Assembly (NCBI GenBank): GCA_036001065.1
Contig: DASYUQ010000131.1
Coordinates: 1 to 39,912 of the forward strand
Source: Candidatus Methylomirabilota bacterium
GTDB taxonomy: Bacteria; Methylomirabilota; Methylomirabilia; Rokubacteriales; CSP1-6
Reading direction: 5' to 3'
Length of the DNA stretch: 39,912 bases
The notes beneath the pieces were generated by a model. The model made no database searches, was not told the origin of the DNA, and saw nothing but the letters and a program-made list of their open reading frames with translations. The position numbers and the translations under genes were made by a program. Below, in pieces: positions 4,658 through 37,397 of this stretch. The stretch's first letter is position 1. Each line of letters begins with the position of its first letter.

Positions 4658-4676
4658 GCGCGCCCTGTGGGCGCGC
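4658..4676 (+). other. GC-rich hairpin after the ATPase stop
   Basis: GCGCGCCC (4658-4665), loop TGT, GGGCGCGC (4669-4676) form a perfect 8-bp stem directly after the ATPase stop codon. There is no T-run, so termination is doubtful. It could act as an RNA stability or translation-attenuating structure between ATPase and permease. It partly overlaps repeat B. Confidence 0.5.
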
Positions 4677-4709
4677 CTGTGAAGGCGCCCCCTCCGACCT
4701 ATGAGCGCA
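4669..4709 (+). repeat. Dispersed repeat B, copy 1 (ends in a start codon)
   Basis: These 41 bases recur with two mismatches on the minus strand at 22350-22390. The conserved part runs GGGCGCGCCTGTGAAG, then CGCCCCCTCCGACC, then ATGAGCGCA. In both copies that final ATG is the start codon of a gene (here the permease), although the two genes are unrelated. ATGAGCGC also occurs at the left boundary (4654-4661), so the insert looks as if it split an ATGA stop/start overlap. Confidence 0.8.
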
Positions 4710-10483: not shown

Positions 10484-11341
10484 ATGAAGCGACTGCTCGC
10501 GCTGCTCCTCACCCTCGCCGTCGTGCTCGGCGGCGCCGTGCCCGCGCTCGCCGAGACGACGCTCGAGAAGATCAGCCGCACCGGCACCCTGACCATCGGC
10601 ACCCGCACCGGCTCGCCGCCGTTCGCCTTCATCAACAAGCAGAACGAGTGGGTGGGGTTCTCGATCGATCTCGTCGAGCAGGCGGTCAAGCCGGCGATCG
10701 AGCGGAAGCTCGGCAAGCCGGTCAAGGTCGAAAAGAAGGAGTCCACGCCGCCGACCCGCATCCCGCTGCTCTCCTCCAACGCCGTGGACCTCATTGCCGG
10801 CACCATGACCGACACCCGCACCCGGCGCGAGAGCGTGGACTTCAGCCTGACCTTCTTCGTCACCGGCGCCCAGTTCCTCGTCAAGAAGGGCAGCCCCATC
10901 AGGGGCATCGATTCCATCGCGGGCAAGCGCATCGCCGCCCAGCAGGGCTCGACCAACGCGCGGATCATCCGGGAGCGGGTGCCCACCGCGCAGCTCCGCG
11001 AGTTTCCCGACCAGCCGGCCGCCTTCCAGGCGCTGGCCCAGGGGCAGGTTGATGCCTTTACCAACGACGGAATCCAGCTGGCCGGGCTGGTCGCCAAGGC
11101 GCCCAACCCCGGGGAGTGGGCGATCGTGGGCGACTTCTTCTCCTACGAGCCCTACGGGATGGCCATGCGCAAGAACGAGTCGGACTTCCGCCACCTCGTG
11201 AACGTGGGGCTCATGGAGGCCATCGAGTCCGGCAAGTACTTCGAGCTCTACGAGAAATGGTTCGGGCCCAAGGGCGAGGTGCCCTATCCGCTGACGGCCG
11301 ACAACAAGCGCTTCATGACCCTGCAGGTGGTGCCAAAGTAG
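10484..11341 (+). CDS. Polar amino-acid ABC transporter substrate-binding protein
   Basis: 285 residues with a clear signal peptide (MKRLLALLLTLAVVLGGAVP, ALA cleavage site near 24). Next comes the SBP_bac_3 fold: GTLTIGTRTGSPPFAFINKQ, WVGFSIDLVEQAV, LSSNAVDLIAGTMTDTRTRR with ESVDFS directly after it, GKRIAAQQGSTN, and YEKWFGP near the end. The ATG has a GGAGG Shine-Dalgarno 7 bases upstream. The arginine in TDTRTRR/ESVDFS matches the alpha-carboxylate-binding region of this family. The glutamate dehydrogenase downstream makes glutamate/aspartate-type ligands plausible, but the specificity is not readable here. Confidence 0.9.
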   Translation: MKRLLALLLTLAVVLGGAVPALAETTLEKISRTGTLTIGTRTGSPPFAFINKQNEWVGFSIDLVEQAVKPAIERKLGKPVKVEKKESTPPTRIPLLSSNAVDLIAGTMTDTRTRRESVDFSLTFFVTGAQFLVKKGSPIRGIDSIAGKRIAAQQGSTNARIIRERVPTAQLREFPDQPAAFQALAQGQVDAFTNDGIQLAGLVAKAPNPGEWAIVGDFFSYEPYGMAMRKNESDFRHLVNVGLMEAIESGKYFELYEKWFGPKGEVPYPLTADNKRFMTLQVVPK

Positions 11342-11384
11342 TGCGAGCCGCAGCCGCAGGCGAGGCGCGCCTGAGGCGAGTCGC
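11342..11384 (+). repeat. Dispersed GC-rich repeat A, short copy
   Basis: The spacer between the binding protein and permease 1 reads GTGCGAGCCGCAGCCGCAGG, then CGAGGCGCGCCTGAGGCGAG, then TCGC before the TTG start. It matches the unit seen at 36284-36410 and, on the other strand, at 22654-22746 and within 12105-12490. Its final GAGGCGAG doubles as the Shine-Dalgarno of the next gene. Confidence 0.65.
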
Positions 11385-12104
11385 TTGACGTACGAGTTCA
11401 ACTGGAGCGTGCTCTGGAGCGGCCAGTCCGGCGGCTGGCTGCTCCAGGGCCTCCTCACCACGCTGGAGATCTCCGCGCTGGCCTGGCTGCTGGCGGTGGC
11501 GCTGGGGATCCTCTCCGGCGCGCTGCGCACGGTGCCGTGGCCGCCGCTCAGGGCGGCGGCGACGTGCTACGTGGAGTTCTTCCGCAACGTGCCGCTCCTG
11601 GTCTGGATGTTCTTCTGGTACTTCGGCATCCCGCCGCTCCTGCCCCGCGGCGTGCAGGACTGGCTCTTCAACCACGGCGCCGAGTTTTGGGCCGGCACGT
11701 TCGCGCTGGGCGTCTATCACGGCGCCCGGATGTCGGAGGTCATCCGCTCCGGCATCCAGTCGATCCCCCGGACCCAGTTCGAGGCCGCCCAGGCAATCGG
11801 GCTCAGCGTGTGGCAGGCCTACCGGCTCGTGATCCTGCCGATCGCCCTCCGCCTGATCGTGCCCCCGGCCACCAACGAGTCGCTGAACCTCTTGAAGAAC
11901 TCCTCGGTGGCGCTGACGATCAGCGTGGCCGAGTTGACGTTCCAGACCCGGCAGATCGAGACCTACACCGCCAGGGCCATCGAGGCGCTGACCGCAGGCA
12001 CGCTGATCTACCTGGTGCTGTGCGTCTCGATCGCAGCCGTCATGACGCGCCTGGAGCGCCGCTTCGCCATCCCCGGCCTGATCGCGCGGGTGGGAGCGGG
12101 CTAG
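11385..12104 (+). CDS. Polar amino-acid ABC transporter permease 1 (HisM/GltJ type)
   Basis: 239 residues from a TTG start. The TTG is supported because the frame opens with TYEFNWSVLWSGQSGGWLLQ, the standard N-terminus of this family, and no ATG fits. Family motifs: VEFFRNVPLLVWMFFWYFGI, the EAA loop EAAQAIGLSVWQAYRLVILP, and NSSVALTISVAELTFQTRQI. About five transmembrane helices. It pairs with the permease at 12511-13188 to form a heterodimer served by the ATPase at 9731-10471. Its terminal codons and TAG stop lie in an 18-base sequence duplicated at 12491-12508, the mark of an insertion between the two permease genes. Confidence 0.9.
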   Translation: MTYEFNWSVLWSGQSGGWLLQGLLTTLEISALAWLLAVALGILSGALRTVPWPPLRAAATCYVEFFRNVPLLVWMFFWYFGIPPLLPRGVQDWLFNHGAEFWAGTFALGVYHGARMSEVIRSGIQSIPRTQFEAAQAIGLSVWQAYRLVILPIALRLIVPPATNESLNLLKNSSVALTISVAELTFQTRQIETYTARAIEALTAGTLIYLVLCVSIAAVMTRLERRFAIPGLIARVGAG

Positions 12105-12508
12105 TGCCGGTCCAATTTAACGTCGCCATACTTCGTTCTCGGACTCACGCAGGCTCGCCTCGGGCAGCAGCCGCCCTGCGGCTTCGCACGACTGGTCCCA
12201 GGCTCGCTTCGGACGGGCAGGATTCTCCGGGTTCGCTCGCCTCGGGCGCAGGGGCCCCAGCCCCTGGCCGCCCTGCGGCTCGCCCAGCGGCCCGCCGGCG
12301 TCCTGCGGCTCGCACTCCCACGCCGGTCCTCGACGTACAACCGCGTACGCCTCCGGCCGGCGCCTCCCTCCGAGCCGATGAAGCGTCGCTTCGCAGCGGC
12401 GGCCGCTGCTCAGCTCCTCCTGCGGCGCCTCGTCTGGCTCGTTACTTGGACCGGCACCCGGCAGGGCACCCGTTGAGGCCTCGCCGGAACCGGGTGGGAG
12501 CGGGCTAG
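12087..12508. mobile_element. 404-bp insertion between two permease genes, flanked by an 18-bp exact direct repeat
   Basis: CGGGTGGGAGCGGGCTAG occurs at 12087-12104 (end of permease 1) and again at 12491-12508, two bases before the permease 2 ATG. Between the copies is a gene-free stretch of 386 bases. At 12104 it begins GTGCCGGTCCAATTTAAC, and the reverse complement of 12441-12457 is GTGCCGGTCCAAGTAAC, so it has terminal inverted repeats like those of the element at 19466-19555. The interior holds several minus-strand copies of repeat A (GTGCGAAGCCGCAGGGCGG, CCCGAGGCGAGC). No credible coding sequence is present, so this looks like a non-autonomous element plus repeat cluster. The right inverted repeat lies 33 bases inside the direct repeat, so the boundary history is composite. 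Confidence 0.65.
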
Positions 12509-20723: not shown

Positions 20724-22358
20724 TCACTTCGGCGTCCAGTCCTTGAAGCGCTCGCGCAGCACCTTCTTGTCGAACTTCCCGACGCTGGTCTTGGGCACGG
20801 CGTCGATGAGGACGACCGCGTCGGGCAGTGCCCATTTGGCCAGCTTCGGCCGCAGATAATCGAGGATCTCGGCGGGGGCGAGCTCCGCACCGGGCTTGGG
20901 GACGACGCAGGCCAGCGGGCGCTCCACCCACTTGGGATGGGGCACGGCGATGACCGCCGCCTCCAGGACCTTGGGGTGGCCCATGATCAGCGTCTCGACG
21001 TCGATGGACGAGATCCACTCGCCGCCCGACTTGATGAGGTCTTTGGTCCGGTCGGTGATCTGCACGTAGCCCTCGGGATCGAGGGTGGCCACGTCGCCGG
21101 TCCGGAACCAGCCGTCCGGGGTGAAGCGGTCGGCGGATTCGGGGTTGTTGTAGTAAGACCGGATCACCCAGGGGCCGCGCACCTGCATCTCGCCCATGCT
21201 CTGGCCGTCCCAGGGCTGCTCGCGCCCCTCGTCGTCCACGATGCGGAGATCGACGCACACGGTGGGATAGCCCTGCTTGGCCCGAATGGCGTAGCGCTCC
21301 TCGTCGGGAAGCGTCTCCATGTAGGACTTGAGGCGGCAGATGGTGCCCAGCGGCGTCATCTCGGTCATGCCCCAGGCGTGGAGCATGGGGGCCCCGTACT
21401 TCTTGTCGAACTTCTCGAGGAGCGTCCGGGGCGCGGCCGACCCGCCGATCGGAATCGCGCGGATCGAGGAGACGTCCCGCGGCGGCTCCCCTTCCAGGAT
21501 CGCGTCGATGGCGATCCACACCGTCGGCACCGCGCCCACGAACGTGACGCGCTCGTTGTGGACGATCTCGACGATGTCCCGCGGCTGCGGGTTGGGACCG
21601 CCGAAGAACTGGGTGGCGCCGTTCATGACGCCGGCGAAGGGGACGCACCAGGCGTTGGCGTGGAACATGGGGACGATGTGGAGGATGATGTCGCGCTCCG
21701 AGATGCCGAGCACGTCGGTCATCGACGACGCCATCGAATGCAGGAAGATCGCCCGGTGCGTGTAGACGGCGCCCTTGGGGTTGCCGGTGGTGCCGGAGGT
21801 GTAACACATGCCGGCGGCGTCGGTCTCCTCGAGCTTCGGCCAGGCCGTCACCGGCGTGGCGCTGCCCAGGAGCTCCTCGTAGTCGAGCGCGCCGGGCGGG
21901 ATCTGGGCGTCCGGCGTGTCCTTCATGACGATGACGTGCTCGACCGAGGGGAGCTGCCGGCGCAGCGGCTCCAGGGTCGGCCAGCAGCTCGCGTCCGCGA
22001 TCAGCACCCGGTCGGCGGCGTGGTTCACGATGTAGGTGATGTCCGGGGCGGAGAGCCGGATGTTCACGGTGTGAAGGACGGCGCCCATCATGGGCGCGGC
22101 GAAGTAGACCTCGAGGTGGCGGTGGGAGTTCCAGGCGAAGGTCCCCACCCGGTCGCCCTTCTTCACGCCGAGGGAGCGCAGGGCGCCGGCCAGGCGCGCC
22201 GTGCGGTCGGCGAAGTCGGCGTAGGTGGACTTCACGAGCCCCACGCCCGGCACCCGCGTGCCCAGCGTCTTCTTCGGGAAGAGCTTGCGCGTGCGTTCGA
22301 AGAAGTGGGTGATGGTGAGCGGGTAGGGCATCATCAGGTCGTCCTGAGGTGCGCTCAT
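20724..22358 (-). CDS. AMP-dependent acyl-CoA ligase (medium/long-chain fatty-acid type)
   Basis: 544 residues, full length for the fatty-acyl-CoA synthetase class. P-loop [11 protein letters not shown] at 186-196, [62 protein letters not shown] and the C-terminal lysine K528 in [23 protein letters not shown] and the N-terminus [18 protein letters not shown] place it in the long-chain-fatty-acid/alkyl-acid branch. It activates a carboxylic acid with ATP and CoA. The start ATG is the final element of repeat B. No other catabolic genes adjoin it on this strand; it stands alone between the DUF6282-like gene and the FGE-like gene. Confidence 0.9.
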
Positions 22359-22390
22359 GGGTCGGAGGGGGCGACTTCACAGGCGCGCCC
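22350..22390 (-). repeat. Dispersed repeat B, copy 2 (ends in the ligase start codon)
   Basis: Minus-strand copy of the 41-base sequence at 4669-4709, with 2 mismatches: GGGCGCGCCTGTGAAG, CGCCCCCTCCGACC, ATGAGCGCA. The ATG is the start of the acyl-CoA ligase. An inverted GGAGGGGGC partner upstream on the same strand (near 22404-22413) can pair with GCCCCCTCC, masking the region next to the start codon. Confidence 0.8.
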
Positions 22391-22434
22391 CCCGGGCGCG
22401 ACGGCCCCCTCCGAGGCCTCCCCCAGCCCAGGTT

Positions 22435-22500: not shown

Positions 22501-23430
22501 TCAGCGGCCTCCCAGATCTTCCGATGTGGCGCACCGGAACCCGACGTGGTGATGGCCGGCCGCGGCGCCTCGGCGATCGTACGAGCGCCGGAGGGTCACG
22601 GACAGCTCGCCGGCGGGATCGTCGTGGCTGGCGCCGCGTACGACGACGCTCACAGGGGCGCCGACCCTCACAGGCTCGCCTCGGGCGCGCTCCGCCTGCG
22701 GCTCCGCGTCCGCCCTGCGGCTTCGCACTCCCCTGCCCTCGCCCGTGAGGCCCTCGCGCCCGTCGTCATGCCGATAAGGGTACGGTCGGAGGATCGTCGA
22801 CGTCCACTCGCGCAGATTGCCCAGCATGTCCTCGACGCCGTAGGGGCTCCGGCCCGCCGGCCGCGCGTCGGCGGGCTCGGTGGCGTTGTAGCGGCGGCCG
22901 TAGACCGCCCGCTCCGGTGAGGGAGGGGCGAAGCCCCACGGATACGGGCGCTTGTCGTCGCCACGCGCCGCCTTTTCCCACTCCGCCTCCGTCGGCAGCC
23001 GACGCCCCTTCCACCGGCAGTAGTCGCGCGCGCCGAACCACGTGACCTCCACGGCGGGGCGGCGCTCGAAGCCGGGGTCGGCCATCCATCGCACGGGCTG
23101 GCCATACATCGGATGGGGCGGCGGACCGACGTTGGCCTGATGGATCCGCGCGTCCTCGTCGTCGGCGTCGAAGCGCCGCTCGCCCTCGGGCGAAACCGCC
23201 CCCTGCGCATTCAGGAACTGGGCGAACTCCGCATTGGTGACCTTGTGGCGGTCGATCCAGAAGTCCCGCACGAACACCCGATGCAGCGGCGCCTGCTCGG
23301 GCGGACCGTCGTCGCGTCCCATCCAGAACGCGCCCGCCGGCACCAGCATGATCCCGTCGGCGTCGGCGGCGGATGGGAGCGCCGGTCCGAGAACGATGGC
23401 GAGCATGGTCAGCACGCACCTGAGCTTCAC
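22501..23430 (-). CDS. Secreted FGE/SUMF1-domain protein with repeat-derived insert
   Basis: 309 residues from GTG 23430. A signal peptide (MKLRCVLTMLAIVLGPALPS) is followed by the FGE-sulfatase fold: MLVPAGAFWMGRDDG, FWIDRHKVTNAEFAQFLNAQ, PAVEVTWFGARDYCRWKGRR, LPTEAEWEKAARG, YPWG and YGVEDMLGNLREWTS. Residues about 229-259 (GEGRGVRSRRADAEPQAERA and following) do not fit the fold and are encoded by repeat A read in frame. After the insert comes VVRGASHDD, where active formylglycine-generating enzymes have cysteine-containing segments. No such Cys is present, so sulfatase activation is unlikely. Role unknown. Confidence 0.8.
   Translation of the reverse strand: MKLRCVLTMLAIVLGPALPSAADADGIMLVPAGAFWMGRDDGPPEQAPLHRVFVRDFWIDRHKVTNAEFAQFLNAQGAVSPEGERRFDADDEDARIHQANVGPPPHPMYGQPVRWMADPGFERRPAVEVTWFGARDYCRWKGRRLPTEAEWEKAARGDDKRPYPWGFAPPSPERAVYGRRYNATEPADARPAGRSPYGVEDMLGNLREWTSTILRPYPYRHDDGREGLTGEGRGVRSRRADAEPQAERARGEPVRVGAPVSVVVRGASHDDPAGELSVTLRRSYDRRGAAAGHHHVGFRCATSEDLGGR
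22654..22746 (-). repeat. Repeat A inside a coding sequence
   Basis: On the minus strand it reads GTGCGAAGCCGCAGGGCGG, ACGCGGAGCCGCAGGCGG, AGCGCGCCCGAGGCGAGCC, TGTGAGGG. It is closely similar to the first unit at 36284-36348 and to the minus-strand repeats in 12105-12490. It interrupts the FGE-like domain without breaking the frame, adding about 31 residues. Confidence 0.7.
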
Positions 23431-35897: not shown

Positions 35898-36287
35898 ATG
35901 CCGATCTACGAGTACGAGTGTCGTGACTGTCGGCGGGTGGTGAGCCTGCTCGTGCTCCGGCCCGGGAGCGGCCAGGCGCCGGCCTGCCCCCGCTGCGGGG
36001 GCTCCGCCCTGACCCGCGTGATGTCCCGGTTCGCCACGGTGAAGTCCGAGGAGGCGCGGCTCGAGGCCCTGGGCGATTCCGGGGCCCTTGGCGACATCGA
36101 TGAGAACGACCCCGCCAGCGTCGCCCGCTTCATGAAGAAGATGGGCCGGGAGATGGGGGAGGATCTGGGCGACGATTTCGAGGACACCGTCGACGAGGCC
36201 CTGGCCGAGTCGGCGGAGGGCGACGCCCCCGGCCAGGACGCGGGCAGGCCTTCGGACTCGGATCTGTCCAGCACCGCGGGCCTGTGA
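35898..36287 (+). CDS. FmdB-family zinc-ribbon protein
   Basis: 129 residues from ATG 35898. Starts PIYEYECRDCRRVVSLLVLR with two Cys pairs (CRDC and CPRC) of the FmdB-type CxxC...CxxC zinc ribbon in the first 40 residues. The rest is acidic and low-complexity (DENDPASVARFMKKMGREMG, then an Asp/Glu-rich tail), unlike the very short classical FmdB proteins. Family members are annotated as putative regulators but their function is largely unproven. MPIYEYEC is the standard start, so the longer upstream frame from 35820 is rejected. The TGA stop lies inside the first repeat A unit (GTGAGGGGGG). Confidence 0.8.
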   Translation: MPIYEYECRDCRRVVSLLVLRPGSGQAPACPRCGGSALTRVMSRFATVKSEEARLEALGDSGALGDIDENDPASVARFMKKMGREMGEDLGDDFEDTVDEALAESAEGDAPGQDAGRPSDSDLSSTAGL

Positions 36288-36410
36288 GGGGGGTGCCAAG
36301 CCGCAGGGCGGTCGCGCGGCCGCAGGCCCGCGCGCCCAAGGCGAGCCGGTGAGGGGGGTGCGAGCCGCAGCACGTCGCGGGGCTGGGGCCCCGCCGTGCG
36401 AGGCGAGCCG
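36284..36410 (+). repeat. Repeat A, two tandem units spanning the zinc-ribbon / GNAT junction
   Basis: Unit 1 (36284-36348) and unit 2 (36349-36410) both begin GTGAGGGGGGTGC, continue with AGCCGCAG and end AGGCGAGCCG. The next bases, GTGA, are the start of the acetyltransferase gene. So each unit runs from one GTGA to the next. The first contains the upstream gene's TGA; the last supplies the GAGGCGAG Shine-Dalgarno-like bases before the GTG start. The inner part of each unit varies. Confidence 0.75.
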
Positions 36411-37397
36411 GTGAAAGTCGTCGTCCACGACCGCCTCGACGCGGTGGGCGCCCCCGCCTGGGCCGGGCTCCACGCGCGGACCCGCCTGGGCTCGCCGTTC
36501 CTCACCTGGACCTGGCAGACCGAGTGGGCGCGCGCCTTTGCCCAGGGCAGCCGCCTCGAGATCTGGCGCGTCGAGGACAACCAGCAGCTGGTGGCGGTGC
36601 TGCCGCTCTACGAGGCGGAGCCGGGCGTCTTCCGTTTGCTGGGGGGCGTCGACGTCTCCGACTACCTCGATCTCCTGGCGCTGGCCGGGCGCGAAGAGGA
36701 GGCCTGGACCGCCCTGCTCGGCGCGCGGGCGGCGGCGACCGCGGTGTGGGACCTCCACGCCGTGCCCGCCGCGTCGCCCACGGTCACCTCCGCGCCGGCA
36801 CTCGCCCCCGCCTTCGGCCTCGGCGCCTCGGCGACGGTCGAGGAGCGTTGCCCCGTGCTGGCGTTGCCGTCCTCCTGGGAGGCCTATCTCGAAACGCTGT
36901 CCGGCAAGCAGCGCCACGAGCTGATGCGCAAGATGCGGCGGCTCGCGCGCGAGGTTCCCGACGCGCGCCCCTCGTGCGCCGCCACGCGCTCCGACATCGA
37001 GACGCGGGTCGGTGATTTCCTCGATCTGCACCGGCGGTCGCGCGCCGGCAAGGCGCGCTTCATGGATCCGCGCATGGAGGGGTTCTTTCGCCGCGTGGCA
37101 GGGGCGCTGGCCGAGCTCGGCGTGATGCGCCTGTGGTTCCTCGACGCCTCCAGCGGGCCGCTGGCCACGTTTCTCACCCTCGAGTGGGACGCCACCGTGG
37201 GCCTCTACAACTCCGGCTTCCATCCCGATCGGGCGTCGCTGGCGCCCGGCCTCGTGCTGCTGGGCCACCTCATCCGCGACGCCATCGCGCGGGGCAAGCG
37301 CCGCTTCGATTTCCTTCGCGGCGAGGAGCAGTACAAGTACGACTTCGGGCCGACCGCCGAGGCGGTCTTCCGGGTGACGATCGGACCGGCGCGATGA
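36411..37397 (+). CDS. GNAT-type acyltransferase (Acetyltransf_6 / BioF2-like, CelD/BcsL group)
   Basis: 328 residues from GTG 36411; 36396 is an alternative GTG that would translate part of the repeat. Motifs: SPFLTWTWQTEWARAFAQGS, VEDNQQLVAVLPLYEAEPGV, LSGKQRHELMRKMRRLAREV, GVMRLWFLDASSGPLATFLT and YNSGFHPDRASLAPGLVLLG, then KRRFDFLRGEEQYKYDFGP. This is the CelD/BcsL-type GNAT fold linked to polysaccharide biosynthesis, where such enzymes acylate envelope carbohydrates or peptidoglycan peptides. It is coupled to the glycosyltransferase by a 4-base ATGA overlap. Confidence 0.8.
   Translation: MKVVVHDRLDAVGAPAWAGLHARTRLGSPFLTWTWQTEWARAFAQGSRLEIWRVEDNQQLVAVLPLYEAEPGVFRLLGGVDVSDYLDLLALAGREEEAWTALLGARAAATAVWDLHAVPAASPTVTSAPALAPAFGLGASATVEERCPVLALPSSWEAYLETLSGKQRHELMRKMRRLAREVPDARPSCAATRSDIETRVGDFLDLHRRSRAGKARFMDPRMEGFFRRVAGALAELGVMRLWFLDASSGPLATFLTLEWDATVGLYNSGFHPDRASLAPGLVLLGHLIRDAIARGKRRFDFLRGEEQYKYDFGPTAEAVFRVTIGPAR

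Follow-up and report, generated by a model that had tools for sequence, protein, structure and literature searches.

We describe a dispersed hairpin element in a Rokubacterium, a soil bacterium, that is a new, lineage-specific variant of the REP-like repeats. We infer that it acts between genes: there is about an even chance, in our judgement, that this lineage-specific REP-like dispersed element of Rokubacteria persists as a ready-made intercistronic linker. The window from which the analysis starts is a single 39,912-nt contig of a 4.46-Mb draft genome with a GC content of 70%, and its copies of the element are listed in Table 1.

Table 1. Copies of the element and associated features in the window.
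Feature	Position	Strand	Remarks
Short diverged copy	11343-11382	+	25.4 bits over 11343-11371, E 0.01; weak by itself
MITE-like composite holding both copies below	12105-12456	-	Ends TGCCGGTCCAA / TTGGACCGGCA, inverted
Short copy within composite	12152-12187	-	33 bits
Nested copy, outer limits approximate	12202-12313	-	Complete core 12234-12283 in loop of second core
In-frame copy, 54 nt	22673-22726	-	26.8 bits; inside FGE-sulfatase gene 22501-23430 (-)
GTGA, first	36284-36287	+	TGA stop of zinc-ribbon gene is 36285-36287; unit A begins here
Unit A core hairpin, diverged, 52 nt	36296-36347	+	Covariance model 41.5 bits, E 1.6e-6
GTGA linking unit A to unit B	36349-36352	+	
Unit B core hairpin, 50 nt, consensus type	36360-36409	+	74 bits, E 3e-14
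GTGA, third	36411-36414	+	GTG start (36411) of GNAT acetyltransferase gene

Tandem units at the zinc-ribbon/GNAT junction

Two units lie head to tail at 36284-36414, flanked and joined by GTGA, and TRF recovers them as the top-scoring tandem repeat of the window (36276-36414, period 65, 2.2 copies, score 166). The upstream gene matches the Zn_ribbon_8 domain (E 7e-12) and the downstream gene, a GNAT, matches Acetyltransf_6 (E 2e-29). A sequence-only reading of this DNA had proposed tandem units chained through GTGA, the first GTGA holding the stop codon of the zinc-ribbon gene and the last forming the start of the acyltransferase gene. Our results bear this out: the three GTGA motifs begin at 36284, 36349 and 36411, a separate gene caller places the zinc-ribbon stop at 36287 and the GNAT start at 36411, and conservation of the GNAT protein begins at one codon in relatives both with and without the element. 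The range given in that reading, 36284-36410, contains real units and ends before the third GTGA, which reaches 36414.

Unit B folds at -33.0 kcal/mol (z -2.45). Its 3' arm, GAGGCGAGCC, occupies 36400-36409 and carries the Shine-Dalgarno-like motif GAGG 7 nt 5' of the GTG start, which is a normal Shine-Dalgarno distance.

A covarying hairpin core

Describing the unit as bounded by GTGA is adequate locally; across copies, it is better described as a core of about 50 nt, GCGAGCCGCAG-N28-CGAGGCGAGCC with a variable stem in the middle, followed by a spacer of 12-15 nt. The core is predicted to fold as one hairpin, ((..(((...(((((..(((((((....))))))))))))..)))..))., and the unit has a 5' tag of the form G[TC][ACG]GT. 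The tag reads GTAGT in 10 of 51 arrays from the window's own genome and in 9 of 19 from a congener (G001), GTCGT and GCAGT being common too. The 3' tail has the general form [T/G][A/G]TGA, of which GTGA is the version seen at 36284-36414; NATGA or NGTGA comes after the core in 21 of 52 own-genome arrays.

Pairing in the stem is maintained while its sequence changes. Among 31 own-genome copies, 95.5% of cells are paired compared to 86.6% after shuffling, with 43 double-change cells against 13.9. Similar values were obtained for 30 cross-species copies, which were chosen on their arms alone and are hence unselected for inner-stem pairing (96.1% against 87.5% of cells; 36 double changes against 9.3). 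GC, CG, AU and UA pairs interchange freely in the stem, and in the own-genome set little or no change is seen at the unpaired GA and GCA residues of the two internal loops. This covariation indicates that the hairpin matters, either as RNA or as single-stranded DNA, the data fitting both. Folded as a whole, the tandem region gains no stability over shuffled sequence (z 0.34), and the case for structure therefore rests on covariation and on the folds of single cores.

Three known kinds of RNA structure were considered. The GA loops were inspected for a kink-turn, and the three-base bulge before the GA is absent; an intrinsic terminator was set aside on visual inspection, as the flanks viewed have no T-run 3' of the hairpin; and a search of the window at E up to 1 returned no Rfam family for the element.

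Copy number and taxonomic range

The element's own genome holds 55 BLAST matches and at least 85 covariance-model matches, the latter count being a lower bound because the best candidates were scored. The exact-arm pattern also gives 55 matches there, compared to none for a backwards control, which was at zero in every genome. Across 95 genomes of the class, the covariance model (E up to 1e-6) finds the element in 42, of which 41 belong to one family and one to the same order, and exact arms occur in 39, all from that one family. Several genomes of genus g9 lie near the maximum that was scored, and their counts should be read as at least the number found. Neither the covariance model nor the exact arms returned a copy from the other orders of the class among these 95 genomes, and the exact arm pattern had no match in IMG/VR viral sequences.

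Copies lie in sense between a stop and a start

Placement was analysed in 631 kb of the own genome and 719 kb of the congener G001, a sample in part picked around copies, using a gene map from a retrained codon-usage gene caller script in which gene starts are predicted. Coding density is 89%, and copies are mostly extragenic. Simple arrays between co-directional genes are oriented in sense in 50 cases and antisense in 4 (p 4e-11), and a convergent gene pair flanks only 1 of 76 arrays, where 11.6 would be expected from gap length (p 8e-5); both p-values, computed on the two genomes together, overstate independence because these genomes share sites. The own genome alone, with composites still included, gave 38 arrays in sense, 10 antisense and none between convergent genes, and one of the antisense calls (L043 18703) resembles a gene-call error. 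The outcome that the sequence-only reading had named as refuting it, copies scattered irrespective of gene starts, was looked for and not seen.

Among 51 sense arrays, the upstream stop codon lies 1-12 nt 5' of the hairpin in 35. The upstream frame enters the element in 8 of the 51, mostly to terminate at the TGA within the tail TATGA, and the tag GTAGT provides a TAG stop in 16 arrays. On the other side, the next start follows the element within 0-7 nt in 15 of 51, after 8-40 nt in 23 and after more than 40 nt in 11; it is found exactly at +1 in 9. Among the many copies with a start 8-40 nt away, some have another possible ribosome-binding site. Divergent regions also hold copies, mostly closer to the gene read in the same sense. 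Loci from other genera (G022 and g9) show similar stop/start placement. In a further genome, G080 (L185-L201), most cores are embedded in another repeated element, CGAAGCCTCCCCCCGACG...GCGCCGGCGAAGCCGGCGCTCGAAG, and may point either way relative to genes.

The other copies that had been named in the window, at 11343, 12152, 12234 and 22673, all exist as covariance-model matches (25-74 bits), yet only one of these places has the expected position before a start. The copy at 11343-11382 lies between the TAG stop (11339-11341) and the TTG start (11385) of ABC-transporter genes, with GAGG before the TTG. Those at 12.1-12.5 kb belong to a composite that is antisense to both neighbours and begins immediately 3' of a permease TAG stop; its inner core, 12234-12283, is essentially consensus (74.3 bits), and equivalent nesting is found at other loci. 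A 17-bp direct repeat, GGGTGGGAGCGGGCTAG, which contains the TAG stop, is found at 12088-12104 and 12492-12508. Relatives of this composite (L099, L102, L107, L115, L133, L165) were identified, and most antisense arrays are composites of this kind. The ends of related composites differ yet still match each other, as at L133 in G001. The copy at 22.7 kb lies inside a gene: the FGE domain spans it, and it adds residues within the predicted domain.

Empty sites and turnover

Relatives retain several of these junctions without the element. In AR22 (L227), the zinc-ribbon and GNAT genes meet in a plain 4-nt overlap, GATCTGTGAAAGTC, and in G007 (L054) the zinc-ribbon/GNAT junction is likewise an empty GTGA overlap, GGCGTGAAGGTC. 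The junction in AR26 (L226) holds one unit and a remnant, and both G000 and G001 have two units, in opposite orders. The next junction presents the reverse case: it is a plain ATGA overlap in the window (37394-37397) and a filled array in G007, with ATGACCCTG on either side and between units. Other empty orthologues are the L097 site in G001 and, conversely, the G001 L127 site in the own genome. Because of the empty sites and the conserved GNAT start codon, we conclude that, at these sites, the element was inserted at a stop/start junction with both reading frames kept. The suggestion that the repeat colonises overlapping gene junctions is thus supported by its sense placement at stop/start junctions and by empty 4-nt overlaps in two relatives, but overlapping junctions are only part of its targets.

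Most own-genome arrays for which both flanks are present in the G001 sample have the element at the same place, but the number of units varies. At L050, L094 and L101, the unit in G001 is less similar to its orthologue than other own-genome copies are, while the flanks are about 95% identical, and cores are also nested within the loops of other cores. This unit turnover and nesting point to continuing movement or conversion. No general target-site duplication was detected, as 4 of 95 arrays share at least 7 flanking bases compared to 1.4 expected; a few sites do have flanking duplications of 7-9 bp.

Relation to known repeats

The closest comparison is with GTAG-tagged REPs, palindromes of 20-40 nt whose tag often forms a TAG stop and which occupy unidirectional and convergent spaces (Di Nocera et al. 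2013, PMC3733652). Like them, our element is a short imperfect palindrome with many extragenic copies and covarying stems near the 3' end of the upstream gene, and some copies carry a 5' GTAG that then often supplies the TAG stop. Unlike them, it is 50 nt long, bears GTAG in only part of its copies (GTCG and GCAG are common too), avoids convergent genes, where those REPs are common too, is strongly tied to the downstream start, forms head-to-tail or nested arrays and has no RAYT. REPs of E. coli that lie no more than 15 nt from a stop codon can lower translation, as cited in PMC12306157; our hairpin base also lies a few nt past a stop codon, but here the next start commonly follows the hairpin closely as well.

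As with REPINs and their RAYT transposases, palindromic units are dispersed and vary in number among relatives. Arrays of our element are, however, head-to-tail on one strand or nested, and head-to-head pairs do not appear to be the main form. No Y1 match was found in G001, genus g9 or G080, element-rich genomes included. The own genome has one Y1 gene, an IS200/IS605-type TnpA (L060) that matches in two adjacent parts and lies beside a TnpB-like gene; two model matches, both weak, lie near Y1 genes. These results do not support a RAYT/Y1 transposase as the element's partner. The element resembles MITEs in being non-coding, dispersed and nested, with 7-9 bp flanking duplications at a few sites. 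Unlike MITEs, the core lacks terminal inverted repeats other than those of its hairpin, shows no general target duplication and, in a search of the Y1 family, yielded no parent transposase. The composite at 12105-12456 is more MITE-like than the core.

Our literature searches gave no report of such repeats from Rokubacteria, and the main text of RepRanger, a broad REP survey, makes no mention of the lineage. Together with the lack of an Rfam match, this agrees with part of the earlier description of the repeat as an undescribed class, which is nevertheless too strong for an element that is REP-like. Because the palindrome is shared, as is the tag in part, whereas convergent avoidance, the tie to a start, length, arrays and the lack of RAYT differ, we regard it as a new REP variant specific to this lineage.

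A possible intercistronic linker

If the element does serve as a linker, it would act as follows. It would enter a 4-nt stop/start overlap (GTGA) and leave both genes intact with GTGA on either side, an entry documented at one junction. Its tag could provide the stop codon (GTAG) and its tail the start codon, and the hairpin would close the gap, bringing stop and start near each other. The 3' arm GAGGCGAGCC would provide GAGG at Shine-Dalgarno distance, such that a terminating ribosome could restart on the next gene. GAGG is plausibly a ribosome-binding site, being suitably spaced where a start follows the copy directly, and the empty AR22 site has no GAGG-type motif directly 5' of its start. 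Shine-Dalgarno-like motifs precede 10 of the 13 starts within 7 nt of the element compared to 43% of all genes, a weak enrichment because the gene caller itself rewards such motifs. Some starts have their own GGAGG. Several observations speak against a linker: about a fifth of arrays have their start more than 40 nt away, the invariant GA-rich residues on both arms exceed what a ribosome-binding site alone would need, and there are the intragenic copy, the antisense composites, the lack of general target duplication and the tandem fold at z 0.34.

A selfish REP- or MITE-like element without host function explains the data nearly as well, and we rate it as a serious contender at somewhat below even chances. 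Insertions into genes would be lost while those at junctions survive, as the 89% coding density would favour, and a target preference for GTAG, ATGA or GTGA would give the orientation. Nesting, tandem arrays, unit replacement, the antisense composites and the in-frame intragenic copy all suit such an element, as does a second hairpin family that also ends at ATGA starts without a Shine-Dalgarno-like motif directly before them. The 50:4 sense bias and the scarcity of convergent copies would, however, demand a strongly oriented target, and neither a consistent target duplication nor a partner transposase (of the Y1 type searched) was found.

The remaining explanations fare less well. Post-transcriptional control of the upstream gene, by stalling terminating ribosomes or protecting the mRNA 3' end, as for E. 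coli REPs near a stop, would fit the stable hairpin 1-12 nt behind a stop in 35 of 51 arrays and the lowered translation cited in PMC12306157. It is nonetheless unlikely, as the element avoids convergent gene ends, where this role would serve equally, and occurs in divergent regions that offer no upstream stop, mostly nearer the same-sense gene. It seems still less probable that the copies are cis-regulatory RNAs of a regulon, such as a riboswitch or protein-binding leader: invariant internal-loop residues with covarying stems would be expected of one, but the neighbours identified in a few cases are diverse (zinc ribbon/GNAT, ABC transporter, FGE-sulfatase), copies are tandem and nested, and Rfam has no match in the window. 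GC-rich sequence folds readily, and unit A and the copy at 11343 are diverged, so an artefact of 70% GC sequence was also considered; the backwards control, which stayed at zero throughout while the pattern itself has 55 matches in this genome, refutes it, and with no copies found in other orders of the class it has next to no credibility.

Extending the linker explanation, it is tempting to speculate that the element is a mobile, self-contained intercistronic region, comprising stop, hairpin, ribosome-binding site and start, that drops into overlapping operon junctions, keeps both genes translated and sets their ratio. We offer this only tentatively and think it less likely than not.

A second, unrelated hairpin repeat family occurs in the window at 4658-4700 (+) and 22350-22400 (-) and at L230-L241, with 27 matches in the own genome and copies also in G001, G004, G013 and G018. 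An ATG lies 3 nt past the repeat in about 10 of 14 copies examined, and several full copies have the upstream stop at their 5' end (TGAGACATCC...), so that they span from stop to start.

Short dispersed repeats are usually viewed as located after genes. Here, a repeat lies between stop and start, its two ends fit the reading frames, and the pre-insertion state survives in relatives, which makes possible a direct test of a mobile repeat as a module for translation initiation or coupling. The finding widens the range of REP-like elements by a lineage in which we found none described, and it bears on the ways in which operons of compact, overlapping genomes accommodate or exploit insertions. If the mobile-linker reading is true, the second stop-to-ATG family would make this a general strategy of Rokubacteria.
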